A DNA stretch of 64,000 nt from Aminiphilus circumscriptus DSM 16581 (lineage in GTDB: Bacteria > Synergistota > Synergistia > Synergistales > Aminiphilaceae): contig NZ_JAFY01000007.1 in NCBI RefSeq assembly GCF_000526375.1, forward strand, positions 930,001 through 994,000. Direction: 5' to 3'. The notes beneath the pieces were generated by a model, which worked only from the letters and a program-made list of their open reading frames with translations, ran no database searches and was not told where the DNA came from. Positions 11,652-36,687 of the stretch are shown piece by piece. How positions within the stretch are numbered: the first letter of the stretch is position 1; each line of letters starts with the position of its first letter. Position numbers and translations under genes: made by a program.

Positions 11652-11801
11652 TGATGGTTTCGATTGTGGCGTTCTTTCGCGCCGCCTTCACCGCGAAGGC
11701 AGCCTTTTCCGAAAGGAACAAAGCGTCCTTCGGCTTCCGGGTCCGCCGGAAAACCCGGTCCGTTTTTCGAAAAACCTCTCCATATTCACGAAAAAGGGGC
11801 T

Positions 11802-12619
11802 TGGATTGTCAAGTCAAACGCAACGGAGGTGGAGCCAGCTCCCGATAGACCTCCGCCGGAGTGCGCCATCCGAGGCACTTTCGTGGCCTGTTGTTGAGGA
11901 GCGATACGTACTGATCCAACTCCTCCCGGCTCACGCTCCGGAAGTCCTTTCCTTACTCATCCGGGCATGTCGGGCGAACTCTTTGCCGTTGTCTACGGTG
12001 ATGCTGCTGCAGGGCGCTCCATCAAGAATCCATGGGACCGCTTTCGCCAGGGGGGTCGAAGCCCTGCTTCTCAGGGGGGCGGCCACAAGGGAACGAAGAC
12101 GTTCCCTTTGCGGCGAAGCAAGGGCCGAATCGCTCCCAGAAGGCCTCGGGCGGTTTCTACGGTACACCGTGGGAACCGCGAGGAAAAGCTGCTCCCGGTG
12201 AATCACCTGCGCCGGGGACCAGTGTTTCTTCATTCCCCGGCGCAGGATCTCCAGAACGAAGGGATCGGACAGTTTCAGAGACCTTCGACAGGATTCGCGA
12301 ACCTTGCCAGAGCGGTCCTGAGCTCGAACTCCGCTGTCGTCACGGGCGCCGCCGCCTGCGCGGAATCTCCCGGCGGATGGTGCTCCTGGAACGCCCGATC
12401 CGGGAAGCGATCTCCTGCGGGGATACTCCGATTCGCAGGCCGATGACGATGATCTCGCGCTCGTCTCTGGCAAGATGGTGGCGGCTCATGGCCGGTTTCT
12501 CCCGCTAGCTGGCTGTTGTAGCGACTCTATCTTAGCGAAGGCCTTGCCGTGGACCTCTCTGTTTTTTCTCGGGGTGTCTCCCTTCCCTTAGCCCTTGTTG
12601 CGTTTGAAGTGTAAATCCA
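11802..12619 (-). mobile_element. Degenerate IS30-family-like element with terminal inverted repeats
   Basis: 818-base element bounded by imperfect 23-base inverted repeats: left end 11802-11824 (TGGATTGTCAAGTCAAACG then CAAC) and right end 12597-12619 (GTTGCGTTTGAAGTG then TAAATCCA), agreeing at 19 of 23 positions including an unbroken TCAAACGCAAC block. Between them lies a frameshifted, internally deleted transposase. IS30 elements are usually 1.0-1.25 kb, so several hundred bases appear to be lost. I see no convincing target duplication. The element is immobile as it stands. Confidence 0.75.
11809..12489 (-). pseudogene. IS30-like transposase remnant
   Basis: Three frames are needed to read it. 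It opens at the ATG at 12489 with the IS30 helix-turn-helix (LARDEREIIVIGLRIGVSPQ, EIASRIGRSRSTIRREI) and then meets a TGA. A second frame carries KLSDPFVLEILRRGMKKHWSPAQVI and the catalytic-core piece TVDNGKEFARH. A third frame ends as LDQYVSLLNNRPRKCLGWRT then PAEVYRELAPPPLRLT. The central part with the first catalytic Asp is missing. Intact IS30 transposases have about 310-350 residues; 227 codons remain here. Confidence 0.8.
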
Positions 12620-12805
12620 CCCACTGGATACCACGTGCCACCGTCGTCGGTCAGGAACGTCGCCGCCGGAATAGGTTCATCCCGGCGGCGACGCGAACGG
12701 CAGTGGTACACATGCAGAGACGCACGCACGGTTCCCACGCGACGGGACCACGGGAAACCCTTTTCGACAGAGAAAGGAAAACCCCTGTCACTTCCGACGG
12801 GACGG

Positions 12806-15711: not shown

Positions 15712-16212
15712 CTACGGGGTGGCCGTCTTCGTGCTCCCCGGCGCGCCGCCGCGCGTGTTCCATCCCGCCTCGGTCTTGGGTCTCTTGTTCCAGGAAAGCC
15801 AGTAGAAGCCGAAATCCTTCATGAGTGCGGCGAAGTCGTCGAATCTCAAAGGTTTCACGACGTAGCTGTTGGCGTGGTACTCATAGGCTCTGGCCATGTC
15901 CCGCTCCGCCTCGGAGGTTGTGAGAATCACCACGGGGATATCCCGCAGTTCGGAATGTTCCTTCACCTGTCGCAACACCTGGAGCCCGTCCACCCTGGGA
16001 AGGCGCAGATCCAGGAGAATCACGAAGGGAACGGGAGATTCGGACGGTTCGGCATATCTTCCACGGCGGAACAGATAGTCCAGTGCGGTCTCGCCGTCCT
16101 CGAGCCACGTCACGTGGTTCGCCACTTCGTGTTCCTCCAGACTGCGGAGGATCATCTCCGCATGGGCGGGATTGTCCTCCACAAGGAGGATCGTCAGCGG
16201 AGCCTCGCTCAC
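15712..16212 (-). CDS. Stand-alone response regulator (Rcp1-like receiver)
   Basis: 166 aa, essentially one receiver domain: acidic pair in LLVEDNPAHAEMIL, phospho-acceptor Asp in VILLDLRLPRVDGLQVL, Thr in VVILTTSEAERD and Lys in SYVVKPLRF. The insert between helix 2 and strand 3 (RRGRYAEPSESPVP) is characteristic of Rcp1-type regulators that partner phytochrome-like or multi-PAS kinases. A basic, Gly/Ser-rich tail of about 25 residues follows. Its GTG start overlaps the upstream kinase stop by 4 bases (GTGA), so translation is coupled. There is no DNA-binding output. Confidence 0.92.
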   Translation of the reverse strand: MSEAPLTILLVEDNPAHAEMILRSLEEHEVANHVTWLEDGETALDYLFRRGRYAEPSESPVPFVILLDLRLPRVDGLQVLRQVKEHSELRDIPVVILTTSEAERDMARAYEYHANSYVVKPLRFDDFAALMKDFGFYWLSWNKRPKTEAGWNTRGGAPGSTKTATP

Positions 16213-18641
16213 ACGTCATCACCTCCGATACGCGGTGCGGGAGGAAAGCGCAGACAGAAGACGGAGCCTTTGCCCTTCCCCTCCGATTCAACCCAGATCT
16301 GCCCTCCGTGGACCTCGACGATGCGCTGGATCAGGGCGAGACCGATACCGGATCCCTCGCTTCGTGGATCCAGTTTATTGAAGAGCCCGAAAATCGTCTC
16401 CCGATACCGGGGTTCGATACCTATTCCGTTGTCGGCAACATAATACACTATTCCATCCTCCCGAGGCATCACGCCGATCTCGATACGGGGGTTTCCCTGT
16501 TCTCCCATGTATTTCACCGCATTCTCCAGGAGGTTCTGGAACACCTCCACCAGCCTGGGGCCATCTCCATAAACATTTCCCAGCCCAGGCAGCACCTCCA
16601 CGACCACACCACGTTCCGCGAGACGCCCCGAAACAGCCTCCAGAGCACGGTGCACCAGTTCCTCCACGGAATGCAATGCCGAGGGATTGACGACGCGCCC
16701 CACCCGGGACAGTTCCAGAAGGTCGTCCAGGAGCAGGGCCATGCGGTCCGCGGCCTCACCGATGCGCTCCATGTCCTTTCGCACCAGGTCCGGTTTCGCC
16801 GCGGCGAGGTCCTGCTCCAGAAGACCGAGAAAACCCTTGACGGTAATGAGAGGGCTCTTCAGATCGTGCGACACCGTATAGGTAAAGCGCTCCAGCTCCT
16901 CGTTCTTCCGCTCCAGTTCCGCGATGAGCCGTTCCCGCTCCTCCCGGCCCCGCTCCTGCTCGGTGACATCCGTGAAGATCGTCGCGAAGTAACCGTGACG
17001 GGGCGAGAAGGCGGAGACCTCGAACCAGCGGCCGAGCGCCCTGGAGTAGTTCCGGAACTGCAGTGTTTCCCCCGAGAGCGCCACGCGTCCGTAGGCTTCG
17101 ATCCAGTGTGGTTCCGTCCCGGGAAGGACATCCAGCACGGTCCGCCCCTGAATGTCCCCTCCCCGCAGCCCCGTGAGGCGTTCGAAGGTGGGATTCACCT
17201 CGAGAAAACGATAATCCCGCGGTTTTCCCTCTCCGTCGAGGATGATCTCGTGCAGGGCAAAACCGTCGAGCATCCTCTCGAAGAGCAGTCGGTACCGGTC
17301 ACGGGATTCGCGGAGCGCTTCCTCCATCTCCCTGCGGACCGTGACATCCCTCGCCGCTGCGTAGATCCTTCTGCCTGCGGGAAAAGATCGCCATTCGATC
17401 CAACGATAGTTGCCGTCCTTGCAACGATAGCGGTTGACGAAATTGAGAACCTCTTTCTGGTTGCCCAGCGTGGAGATCGCATCCAGCGTAGCCTGTACAT
17501 CCTCGGGATGGACGAACTCGATGAAGAAACGTCCCGCCAGCTCATCCAGGCGATACCCCAGGGTATGCTCCCATTCCGCATTCAGCCGGAGGAAACGCCC
17601 CTCCGTGTCGGTGATGCAGAGCAGATCGAGAGCGCTCAGGAAAAACTGCTCCGCCTCCTCGGTCTTCTCCTTTACGGCTTCGAGCACTTTCCAGCGTTCC
17701 GTCACATCCATGAAGGTGGTATAGACCTCGAACGGTTCCGTCGCTCCCGGCCGTGTCCTCGGGTGAGAGCTGACATCAATCCAGCGGAATGCCTCCTCCT
17801 CCGGATTGAAGACCCCCATGAGAATGTTTCGCACCACCTTTCCCGTTCGAAGCGCCACCATGGCCGGGTGCTCCTCCCCTGGAAAAGGAAGACCATCCTT
17901 CCGGACCGCACTCCAGCGGGAATCCAGAGAGGTGCGTCCCTGCAACTGAGCGAGGGAAAGACCGAGGATTCTCTGGGACGCGGCATTCGCCGCCACAATC
18001 TCTCCCGATGCATTCTGGTAGACCACTCCCTGATCCAGCGTGTCGAAAAGATCCCGATACCGCTCCTCGCTCTCCCGAAGCGCCTCCGACACCTCCATGG
18101 CCTCGATTCTGGCAAGGGAAAGGTCCACCAGTGTGGCCACCAGATCCGTGTAGTAGCGGAGCATGGCGTCCAGGCGTTCCGAGGAAAAACGCGGAACGGC
18201 CTCTATGGCTTCGAGATACTCCTTTTCCGGAAATCCGTATGCGACGGCCTGTCTCCGAAAAAAATCCATGTCCGGTTCCTCTTCGGCGAGCAGAAATTTC
18301 CCCAGAAAAAGCGTCCCCAGGTGCATCCCCCTTACGACGAGGGGAACCGCCACATTCCAGAGGCCGTTTTCGCACTTGTATCTCCGTTTCACCCGCCCAT
18401 CGGAAAGCGACGCTTCCGCGAGAAACTTTTCCGCGGCGGCATCGCTGCGCCTGCACCGCCGATACGTGTCCGGATTGCCGTGATGATAACGGAGACACGC
18501 ATCCGGTCCTCCGGACGCCACCAGGATTTCCCGGTCCCCGTCGAGGATCGTCACGGAGATCCCCCCGGCGTCATAGAGGGAATCGATCATTCGCTGCAGC
18601 CGTGCGACGTCCACCAGATCCGCGAGTCGGAACCGTTCCAT
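16209..18641 (-). CDS. PocR-PAS multidomain sensor histidine kinase
   Basis: 810 aa, cytoplasmic. The N-terminal sensory part resembles the PocR domain (RLADLVDVARLQRMIDSLYD; Cys-rich segment ACLRYHHGNPDTYRRC; YKCENGLWNVAVPLVVRG then MHLGTLFLGKF). Three or four PAS/PAC units follow (around residues 190, 320, 450 and 560), then HisKA with SHDLKSPLITVKGFLGLLEQ and an HATPase (FQNLLENAVKYMG, VADNGIGIEP, SEGSGIGLALIQRIVEVHGG). PocR domains are proposed to bind small metabolites and occur in regulators of microcompartment pathways. The ATG at 18641 has AGAGGA upstream; an in-frame TTG at 18689 is less likely. Confidence 0.9.
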   Translation of the reverse strand: MERFRLADLVDVARLQRMIDSLYDAGGISVTILDGDREILVASGGPDACLRYHHGNPDTYRRCRRSDAAAEKFLAEASLSDGRVKRRYKCENGLWNVAVPLVVRGMHLGTLFLGKFLLAEEEPDMDFFRRQAVAYGFPEKEYLEAIEAVPRFSSERLDAMLRYYTDLVATLVDLSLARIEAMEVSEALRESEERYRDLFDTLDQGVVYQNASGEIVAANAASQRILGLSLAQLQGRTSLDSRWSAVRKDGLPFPGEEHPAMVALRTGKVVRNILMGVFNPEEEAFRWIDVSSHPRTRPGATEPFEVYTTFMDVTERWKVLEAVKEKTEEAEQFFLSALDLLCITDTEGRFLRLNAEWEHTLGYRLDELAGRFFIEFVHPEDVQATLDAISTLGNQKEVLNFVNRYRCKDGNYRWIEWRSFPAGRRIYAAARDVTVRREMEEALRESRDRYRLLFERMLDGFALHEIILDGEGKPRDYRFLEVNPTFERLTGLRGGDIQGRTVLDVLPGTEPHWIEAYGRVALSGETLQFRNYSRALGRWFEVSAFSPRHGYFATIFTDVTEQERGREERERLIAELERKNEELERFTYTVSHDLKSPLITVKGFLGLLEQDLAAAKPDLVRKDMERIGEAADRMALLLDDLLELSRVGRVVNPSALHSVEELVHRALEAVSGRLAERGVVVEVLPGLGNVYGDGPRLVEVFQNLLENAVKYMGEQGNPRIEIGVMPREDGIVYYVADNGIGIEPRYRETIFGLFNKLDPRSEGSGIGLALIQRIVEVHGGQIWVESEGKGKGSVFCLRFPPAPRIGGDDV

Positions 18642-19093
18642 GGGATCCTCTCTCCATTTCGTCGCTCTCAGTTCTTCCGGCGGGCCCAAGAGTCCCGCAC
18701 CTTGTCTCTTCCAGACTCCTGCGCACTCGCCTTTCCGGCCTTTCCGCAGCGCTTGCAGAACACGCCGTTTCTCCCGAACGTCGAGAACGTGGGAGCATTT
18801 TAAAAAGCATCCTGCCTCGGTAAAATCTTAGCGCATTTTAGGAATTTGGCGAACAATTCTTGTTGTGTGCGTCACGTTGTGCAAAAGGTTTTCATGGCGC
18901 TCGACGACCGGCGACGGCGAAAAATCCCTGCAAGAGCGGTTGTGCCACTCCGGAACAGCAAAAGCATCCGGAAGACGGAGCGGTGTCCGGCGCAGCGCAA
19001 GGCGAGAAGACGGACACGTCACCTCTCCATCCCTTCCGCAGGGGAGTCCTGGAAATCCCGGGGAAATCGTCTCCGCGTTCAGACATAACGCAC
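18642..19093. other. Intergenic region upstream of the PocR kinase
   Basis: 452 bases with no supported gene. It must hold the leftward promoter of the signalling operon; the AT-richer stretch around 18800-18860 (TTGTTC near 18855 and TAAGAT near 18829 on the minus strand, spacing too long) is the best candidate. Short frames on both strands lack binding sites. Confidence 0.4.
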
Positions 19094-19142: not shown

Positions 19143-19219
<77 letters not shown>

Positions 19220-19399: not shown

Positions 19400-19499
19400 T
19401 CACCACCGCCTCGAAAGCACCAGCGACAGAACCAGCAGCAGCGCGAACGGCGAAAATCCCGCATCGCATCCGCCGCATCCTCCACCGCCGGAAGGAGGC
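19400..19499 (-). pseudogene. Orphan Synergist-CTERM sorting-signal tail
   Basis: The minus-strand frame ending at 19400 encodes PPSGGGGCGGCDAGFSPFA then LLLVLSLVLSRRW and a stop: a Gly/Cys patch, CDAGF, a Leu/Val helix and an Arg-rich end. That is the layout of the Synergist-CTERM C-terminal signal found on exported proteins of Synergistota. Upstream in the same frame the sequence is only the complement of the permease remnant, so the rest of the exported protein is gone. It is therefore the surviving 3' end of a gene truncated at a rearrangement junction near 19500. Confidence 0.65.
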
Positions 19500-19508
19500 T
19501 GTGGCGGG

Positions 19509-20249
19509 TTGGGACTGGGAAACGCCGTCACCGTCGTGGTGGGAAGCTGGACCGCCGGAGCCGTCATGGAAGTCGATCTGTTCCGGTTCACCAGGAATAT
19601 CGCAGCGGTCTTCGCCGGGGCGGCGGCCTGCTTCATCCTCACCAACCCCCTTCTGGACGTGGTGGGCTACATCGGCGCCGTGTCGGTGGGTCAGTTCAAC
19701 TACGTGGAATGGATGCTGGACAAGAGTCCTTTCTTCGCCGTCGTCGACTGCCTCGCCTGAACGACGTCCCTTTGGACCACCAACAACGCCGAACTGTACT
19801 GCAACTCCCTCTACACCGGCTCCATCCCCACCTCCCATGGCAAGTCCGCGGACCGGAAAACACTCGTGCTCCTGGCGGGAATTCTGGGAACGTTTCTGGG
19901 ATCGCTCGGATTCCACCAAATCTTCTCCGCTGACTTCGTCACCGTCCTCGGCGCAACGGCCCCACCGCGGGCGGGACCCCTCATCGCCGACTTCTACTTC
20001 ATTCGGAAGCGACACTACGCGGCGGAACACCTGGACGACGAGCCGGACTACCGCCTGGCGGGGATCGTTTCCTTCCTGGGAGGCGCCGCACTGGGACTCT
20101 TTTCCCAGCACGTGAGCCCGCCGCCCGGGGATCTTCCCTCGGAACTGCTCGCCTTGTGCATCACGATTCCGCTCTACCTTCTCCTCCATCGTCTGACGCC
20201 GGGGGTTCGCCGCGATGGAAGCCGCTCCCGCTCTATCCCTTCTTCCTGA
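19509..20249 (+). pseudogene. Cytosine-permease-like (NCS1) transporter remnant
   Basis: One frame encodes the C-terminal half of a CodB-like permease: GNAVTVVVGSWTAGAVMEVD, LFRFTRN, the helix IAAVFAGAAACFILTNPLLD, the family-typical LWTTNNAELYCNSLYTGS, then LVLLAGILGTFLGSLGF, VLGATAPPRAGPLIADF and DYRLAGIVSFLGGAALG. The 5' half (about six helices) is absent; homology stops at the junction near 19505. An in-frame TGA at 19758-19760 interrupts it just before the TTSLWTTNN segment, with the frame otherwise continuous. Truncation plus stop make it non-functional. Its 3' end overlaps the convergent mutS2 end by 17 bases. Confidence 0.75.
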
Positions 20250-22605
20250 ACGTGACGATGGTGACGCCGTAACCACCCTCTCCAGGACCGCCAAGGCGCT
20301 GCTCCTCCACGTAGGGAAGGCGCTTGCAGATGTCCTGCACCTCTCTCCGGAGGATGCCCTCGCCCCTGCCGTGAATGATGGACACGGTCCCGTAACCGTA
20401 CCGATAGGCCTGGTCCAGGTAGTGCTCCACCATGGGGATGGCCTCGTCCATGGTCATGCCGCGGATCATGAGCGATCCGGACACCCGTTCCGAGGGCGGA
20501 GTGACCTTCACATCCACAGAGACCCTGGGGGAACTCCCGCCGGGCTGTTCCTGGACAAGGCGGAGGCGCTTCAGAGGAACGCGGATGCGCATGCCTCCGG
20601 CGAGCACGAGGGCCTGCCCCCGCTCCAGTTCCTCCACGACGCCCACGACCTTGCTTTCCAGAAGCTGCACCGTCGAACCCACTTCGAGGGTCTTCTTCTC
20701 CCCCACCACGGATTGCCGCTCCAGGCGCCGCTCCTCCCGGGCGTCGATATGTCTCTTCATGCGATCCAGCTCCTGTTTTTTCTCCTGCATCACCCGCTGC
20801 GCCGACGACTCCGCCGCATGCTCCAGCTCGCGCAGAAGGGACCGGGCGCTTTCCTCGGCATCGCTGAGGATCTTCCGGGCCCGCCGGTCTGCCCCGGCGA
20901 GAATGGCGTCGCGCTTTTCGTTCACTTCCGCGTACTTCCGCTCGAACTTCTCCCGCAGGGCGGCGATCTCCCGACGATCCGCGGCAATGCGCTCCTGCAC
21001 CCGTTCGAGATAGGCCTGTTTCTCCTGCAGTTCGCCGATGAGTTCCTCCACCGAGGCCTCGCCTCCGGCGAGCACGTCCCGAGCGCGCTGCACCACCGAG
21101 GAGGGCATGCCCAGTCGCTCGGCGATGTAGAGGGCGTTGCTCCGCCCCGGCACCCCCATGAAGAGGCGGAACGTGGGAGAGAGCGTCGCCGCGTCGAACT
21201 CGACGCTCGCCGTCTCCACCCTCGGGGTGCTGAGGGCGAACTTCTTGATCGGATTGTGGTGCGTGGTGGCGATAACGAGACTTCCCCGGTCGAGCAGCTC
21301 CTGCAGCAGAGCGATGCCGAGGGCAGCTCCCTCGTGGGGGTCGGTTCCGGCTCCGAGCTCGTCCAGGAGCACGAGGGAATTGGGTCCCGCCTCCTCCAGC
21401 ATGCCGATCACGGTGGTCATGTGAGCACTGAAAGTGGAGAGATTCTGCTCGATGCTCTGCTCGTCGCCAATGTCCGTGAGAATGCGGTCGATGTCCCCCA
21501 CCACGGCCCCTTCGGCGGCGGAAATGGGCAAGCCGCACCAGGCGAGGAAGGTGAGCACCCCCACGGTCTTCAGGGCGACGGTCTTGCCTCCCGTGTTCGG
21601 CCCGGTGATGACAAGGATTCGGAAGCGCTCGCCTCCATGGATGTTAATGGGCACCGCCCCCTCTCCCAGCAGGGGATGTACGGCGTTGCAGAAGTGAAAG
21701 TGCCCACGTTTGGAGGGCACCACTTCGGGAACATGCCAACGGTGTTTCCGCATGTACTCCGCCGTGGCGAAGAGCGCATCCGCGTAGCCAAGAGCCTCCT
21801 CCGCCTCGACGATGGCCCGCTCGCGGCGCAGCAGATCCTGGGTGAGACGCGTCAGGATGGCCCGCTCCTCCTTGCGTTCCTCGTCGCCGAGAATTCCCGT
21901 CCTGTTGTTGTGCGGAATAAGCGCCGTAGGTTCCATGTAAACGCTGTTTCCAGACCCGGAGCGCTCCAGAGCGATGCCGGGAAAGCTGTTCACGTACTCG
22001 TGACGGACGAGTAGAACGTATCGCCCCTCCCGAAGCGTGAGCACCCGCTCCTGAAGCATACTTCCCAGGGACGGCTCGTTGAGGAGAGCGTGTCCCAGGC
22101 GTCGGATGTCTGCACGAATGTGTTCGAGCCGTTTCCGGATCTCAGCCAGTTTCTGGGACGCCGTGTCGTAGAGCCACCCGTCGTCGGAGAGTACCGCAAG
22201 GGAGGTCAGTTCGGGAGAAAAATCTTTCAATCCTCTGCCGAGATCCTCGAGAGCGGGGAAGCGCTCCTTCCGCTCCACCACCGCTCCCCGCACCTCCATG
22301 GCGAGGCGGAGGAAGTTCCGCACCAGGACAAGCTCCTCCCCGGTGAGAAAGGCCGAGGCTTTCGCCTCTTCAAGAAGGGGCAGAACGGGCTTGACCCTGT
22401 TGTCCCAGGGCAGTTCTCCCTCCATGTCCCGCATTCTGCAGTAGACGCGCAGTAACTCCTGCCGGGTCTGCAACTGCTGCACCGACAACGCGGGGCGAAG
22501 GCCGGAAAAGTGCCGCACGCCCAGGGGGCTGCGGCATTGTCGTGCGAGTTTCTCCAGTATCTTGTCAATTTCCAGGGTTTCGCGAACCCGTTCGTTCACG
22601 ATCAC
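20233..22605 (-). CDS. mutS2: Endonuclease MutS2 / RqcU-like ATPase
   Basis: 790 aa, normal length. The MutS core has Walker A TGPNTGGKTVALKT near residue 332, Walker B region LVLLDELGAGTDPHEG and the helix ATTHHNPIKKFAL. A coiled-coil clamp of about 150 residues follows, then a KOW-like segment and a C-terminal Smr domain (LMIRGMTMDEAIPMVEHYLD, SIIHGRGEGILRREV). MutS2 suppresses recombination and in Bacillus rescues collided ribosomes. The GTG start at 22605 has GGAGG 7 bases upstream and overlaps the cvpA stop by 4 bases. Last gene of the long leftward operon. Confidence 0.93.
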   Translation of the reverse strand: MIVNERVRETLEIDKILEKLARQCRSPLGVRHFSGLRPALSVQQLQTRQELLRVYCRMRDMEGELPWDNRVKPVLPLLEEAKASAFLTGEELVLVRNFLRLAMEVRGAVVERKERFPALEDLGRGLKDFSPELTSLAVLSDDGWLYDTASQKLAEIRKRLEHIRADIRRLGHALLNEPSLGSMLQERVLTLREGRYVLLVRHEYVNSFPGIALERSGSGNSVYMEPTALIPHNNRTGILGDEERKEERAILTRLTQDLLRRERAIVEAEEALGYADALFATAEYMRKHRWHVPEVVPSKRGHFHFCNAVHPLLGEGAVPINIHGGERFRILVITGPNTGGKTVALKTVGVLTFLAWCGLPISAAEGAVVGDIDRILTDIGDEQSIEQNLSTFSAHMTTVIGMLEEAGPNSLVLLDELGAGTDPHEGAALGIALLQELLDRGSLVIATTHHNPIKKFALSTPRVETASVEFDAATLSPTFRLFMGVPGRSNALYIAERLGMPSSVVQRARDVLAGGEASVEELIGELQEKQAYLERVQERIAADRREIAALREKFERKYAEVNEKRDAILAGADRRARKILSDAEESARSLLRELEHAAESSAQRVMQEKKQELDRMKRHIDAREERRLERQSVVGEKKTLEVGSTVQLLESKVVGVVEELERGQALVLAGGMRIRVPLKRLRLVQEQPGGSSPRVSVDVKVTPPSERVSGSLMIRGMTMDEAIPMVEHYLDQAYRYGYGTVSIIHGRGEGILRREVQDICKRLPYVEEQRLGGPGEGGYGVTIVTFRKKG

Positions 22606-36277: not shown

Positions 36278-36687
36278 GGATCTCGTGAACGGTATCCCGT
36301 ATCCCGTATGCATCATAGTTCTTCCGACGGTTTTTCGCAACAAGCTCCGGAGAAGATCTTTTTTCGTCCATACCGGAGAAGTCTTCCGCCCCGCACGAAG
36401 GGGGGAAACGGTTTCCAAAAAACACAGACCTTACAAAGCAAGACAGCAGTTTTTCAGCCCTGCCGCTGCAGCACATAAAAGCGGTGCCGGTTATCACTCG
36501 TCGCTTTCCTGGGAAACGCTTCCTCAGGCAAAAAACAAAGGAATCTCTGAATAAATAAGGCTACGTCAGCCCCGCAGGGCGCCTCGCAGAGCCTGATGCA
36601 ACCCGAGTCAAGGGAAAGCGAAAGGTCTTTATTCAGGGCTTCCCAAAGACTTTTCATACTTATCCATCGTGCAGGAGGGATTGTTTC
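36278..36687 (+). other. Long leader upstream of gntR
   Basis: About 400 bases between the rightward promoter and the gntR ATG. No supported gene. A 9-base inverted repeat, CTGAATAAA (36547-36555) and TTTATTCAG (36628-36636), encloses a GC-rich stretch. A second promoter near 36650 (CATACT) is possible but lacks a -35. Confidence 0.4.

Follow-up and report, generated by a model that had tools for sequence, protein, structure and literature searches.

How two gene fragments on opposite strands come to lie end to end, each lacking its 5' part at the same point, is the question raised by positions 19,400 to 20,249 of the window, a stretch of 64,000 nucleotides from Aminiphilus circumscriptus DSM 16581. 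Here the 3' end of a Synergist-CTERM protein gene, on the minus strand and reaching up to 19,501, abuts the tail of a CodB-like permease gene on the plus strand (beginning at 19,503). The original prediction read this arrangement as an inversion or a deletion between two loci next to a tRNA-Arg gene. The evidence discussed below favors, with a probability of roughly 95%, a single interstitial deletion in the window's lineage, which removed about 3.48 kb and left the two 3' tails as pseudogenes.

The breakpoint and the lost segment

The genome from which the window derives measures 3.22 Mb, is 99.9% complete, and is assembled in seven contigs, with the junction on a contig of 1.02 Mb. It was compared with a single same-genus relative (n=1), Synergistaceae bacterium UBA5560 (hereafter G001), a metagenome-assembled genome (MAG) that is 81% complete. 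In the alignment, homology to G001 on the left side stops at 19,501, or at 19,507 if imperfect overlap is counted, and homology on the right side begins at 19,503. The junction thereby falls at 19,501 to 19,508, with position 19,502 unmatched on either side, and the predicted loss of both 5' portions at one point is confirmed. From 19,503 onward, the right flank is 92% identical to G001 over 17 kb, and from 19,501 the left flank is 88-93% identical over ~6.9 kb, down to ~12.6 kb. These matches are far beyond chance, and the order and orientation of both flanks are the same in the window and in G001. The right flank carries an intact mutS2 gene (20,233 to 22,584, minus strand; Pfam MutS_V and Smr), which is convergent with the permease tail, slightly overlaps it, and encodes a C-terminal half with 98.7% amino acid identity between the window and G001. 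To the left, an intact gene for tRNA-Arg (CCG) lies away from the breakpoint (19,143 to 19,219, minus strand), followed by a PocR/PAS sensor histidine kinase gene identified by Pfam (16,209 to 18,641, minus strand). All three flanking genes are collinear in G001.

The window lacks 3,480 bp that correspond to C129:41559-45038 of G001. Read in the window's orientation, the order in G001 is kinase, tRNA-Arg, CTERM gene (535 aa), GNAT gene, permease (482 aa), and mutS2, and the comparison with a relative that had been proposed thus recovered both the permease and the CTERM gene intact. The segment absent from the window comprises the 5' 502 codons of the CTERM gene (minus strand), the GNAT acetyltransferase gene (minus strand), and codons 1-234 of the permease gene (plus strand). 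Because the two end genes are divergently oriented in G001, a lone deletion spanning the interval takes away their 5' ends and brings their 3' tails together at a single point, as observed, and an inversion is unnecessary. The predicted deletion is thus supported, and what had been taken for two loci is more aptly regarded as a single contiguous stretch.

An inversion or translocation that moved the missing 5' parts elsewhere in the chromosome could, in principle, bring the tails of opposite-strand genes together at one point. It is nevertheless very improbable, because both flanks are collinear with G001 in the same orientation and the window's genome, 99.9% complete, contains no orthologous copy of the 3,480 bp. 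When the segment was searched against the rest of the window's own genome, the matches obtained were paralogous beta-helix genes with 66-81% identity, chiefly on contig C1, together with many dispersed repeats of ~120 bp. Contig C1 of this genome (G000) holds, at ~83.7-95 kb, a cluster of several beta-helix paralogues related to the truncated CTERM gene. A search of the same genome for a second permease of the CodB-like NCS1 type found none. Of the two events originally offered, deletion is therefore the one that stands.

The integrity of the genes in G001 suggests that the direction of change was loss rather than gain. An insertion in G001, in place of a deletion in the window, was considered and rejected, since it would need two reading frames to have been completed by chance. 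Full-length permeases of the same type, with 54-77% identity, are present in other Synergistota MAGs, in Bacillaceae/Planococcaceae (Firmicutes), in Morganella, and in Campylobacter, which argues that the intact form is ancestral. The deletion most probably occurred after the split from the sister species, with endpoints inside the CTERM gene and the permease gene, and took with it the promoters and 5' coding parts of both genes as well as the intervening GNAT acetyltransferase gene. The two leftover 3' ends are pseudogenes, and the permease remnant has since acquired a nonsense codon together with an excess of amino acid-changing substitutions.

Decay of the two remnants

The plus-strand remnant (19,503 to 20,249) spans codons 235-482 and the stop codon of the permease gene and is 88% identical to the intact G001 permease. 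As anticipated, a CodB-like permease is represented here by its C-terminal half, with matches to the NCBIfam cytosine permease family NF008241 (E=1.6e-26, under the curated cut-off) and to Pfam PF02133 (E=9e-5). The in-frame TGA described earlier lies at 19,758 to 19,760, where G001 has a sense codon. Relative to G001, dN/dS is 0.37 for the permease remnant and 0.064 for its neighbor mutS2, from nonsynonymous/synonymous counts of 32/31 and 6/31, respectively (Fisher p=6e-4). Most other clear genes of the window have values of about 0.02-0.25, in a comparison that leaves out the kinase, whose reading frame is interrupted in the MAG, and overlapping shadow frames. The test of relaxed constraint covers the permease remnant alone, the CTERM tail being too short. 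Together, the nonsense codon and the raised dN/dS indicate a genuine loss that did not happen recently, and the permease remnant would appear to have evolved under relaxed constraint for a considerable share of the period since the lineages split.

These signs of decay also bear on whether the join at 19,502 could be a chimeric assembly artefact, with the genes of the living strain intact. Two families of dispersed repeats are present elsewhere in the window and might encourage such a join. The junction, however, sits in unique coding sequence of the 1.02-Mb contig rather than in a repeat, and the permease remnant, with its nonsense codon and relaxed-constraint substitutions, is unlike an intact functional gene. 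Because this decay must postdate the loss, a chimeric assembly is most unlikely.

The minus-strand remnant (19,400 to 19,501) consists of 33 codons and a stop codon, in good agreement with the last ~30 codons of a Synergist-CTERM protein that had been recognized near 19,500. It is collinear with G001, where the protein of 535 aa is intact and residues 503-535 are the counterpart of this tail. The tail scores 27.0 bits against the Synerg-CTERM sorting domain TIGR04564, passing the curated cut-off of 22.5, and the G001 orthologue scores 32.9 bits. In addition to this domain, the G001 protein contains a PF13229 beta-helix, a choice-of-anchor Q region (NF041518), and a hydrophobic N-terminus that, judged by eye, resembles a signal peptide. 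The gene encoded a beta-helix surface protein, of which the window, in contrast to the intact orthologue, retains the sorting tail alone; the N-terminal signal peptide was removed with the deletion. A literature search returned no paper text containing the term "Synergist-CTERM" and none on this region of the genome.

A minus-strand frame of 81 aa, with a TTG start at 19,645, begins in sequence antisense to the permease, continues without a stop into the CTERM tail, and could be taken for a new, expressed short CTERM protein. There is little reason to expect one. The frame has no signal peptide recognizable by eye, so that the CTERM sorting machinery should be out of its reach; the original promoter lay within the deleted segment; and chance open frames are common in GC-rich antisense sequence. 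Genome annotation should accordingly treat with caution both this 81-aa "CTERM protein" and a 127-aa "permease" frame, which are most likely not genes.

Formation of the junction

Unique coding sequence surrounds the junction, which lies outside repeats and has no insertion sequence at it. The two ends of the segment in G001 share five of six bases at 19,502 to 19,507, a weak microhomology that ~4% of random position pairs would equal in score and that is at most suggestive of microhomology-assisted recombination. Since neither a repeat, an insertion sequence, nor a tRNA gene lies at the junction, we infer that the deletion arose by illegitimate recombination, which may have been microhomology-mediated or may have involved blunt end-joining or slippage.

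Deletion mediated by an insertion sequence was also considered. Repeats of ~120 bp occur at 18,864 to 18,925 and inside the missing segment, and neither is at a breakpoint, so this route was rejected. The sequence at 18,864 to 18,925 is an end relic of a Mutator-type (PF00872) insertion sequence, full copies of which are dispersed in the genome, where the end has >25 matches. Another Mutator-type (PF00872) end relic lies inside the 3.48-kb segment. Elsewhere in the window, a miniature element of ~100 bp at 36,540 to 36,645, with apparent inverted ends CTGAATAAA...TTTATTCAG, falls in an alignment gap relative to G001 and has 45 matches in the window's genome and seven in G001. A second large difference from G001 is found at 11,781 to 12,622, where 0.84 kb in the window stands opposite 9.3 kb. 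The window's sequence there resembles, by eye, an IS30-type transposase broken over several frames, with no Pfam match. The 9.3 kb of G001, which lack an orthologous counterpart in the rest of the window's genome, include, again by eye, a trehalose-phosphate-synthase-like gene.

A role of the tRNA-Arg gene as the recombination site, for instance as an integration or excision site from which a mobile element departed imprecisely and took the gene starts along, draws on the ~280 bp that separate the tRNA gene from the breakpoint. It is extremely improbable. The tRNA gene and the stretch between it and the breakpoint are collinear and undamaged in the window and in G001, and nothing is inserted beside the tRNA gene relative to G001. 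Neither an integrase nor an attachment-site repeat nor the remnant of an element was observed, and in G001 the lost genes are ordinary genes of the chromosome.

The suspected rearrangement is thus resolved into a precisely bounded deletion of 3.48 kb. With a contiguous loss, collinear flanks, two truncated genes, a later nonsense mutation, and relaxed constraint, the locus is an ordinary deletion scar of the kind known from bacterial pseudogenization by illegitimate recombination. It departs from such cases in nothing unusual, and its junction is free of repeats, insertion sequences, and tRNA genes.

The permease and its creatininase partner

The function that was lost with the permease can be approached through its intact relatives. 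The G001 protein, an intact 482-aa open reading frame, belongs to the NCS1 family, passing the Pfam PF02133 threshold with a score of 69.6 against 23.5. It differs from cytosine permease CodB in two respects. First, it reaches 162.8 bits against NF008241, short of the equivalog cut-off of 326. Second, the permease gene adjoins a creatininase-family gene in other organisms: at the loci L062, L063, L065, L066, and L070, a gene encoding 256-259 aa lies directly 3' of the permease gene, and the three of these genes tested by Pfam belong to the creatininase family PF02633 (E ~1e-56 to 1e-63). Given the missed cut-off and this neighbor, the permease probably transports something other than cytosine.

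The window's genome contains one creatininase gene, on another contig (L085, 1373-2142; contig C5, ~406.23-407.00 kb). Over its first 198 residues, the product is 82% identical to the permease-linked enzyme of L062, from a related MAG, and an apparent frameshift follows near residue 199. No creatininase gene was seen in G001, a genome that is only 81% complete. We tentatively raise the possibility, for which the odds are somewhat below even, that this lineage is losing the permease along with its usual partner, the creatininase-family amidohydrolase. If so, a whole small uptake-and-hydrolysis pathway would have become dispensable, and the locus may offer a small example of pathway decay, in which neither the NCS1 permease nor the creatininase, neighbors in other bacteria, seems to have stayed intact.
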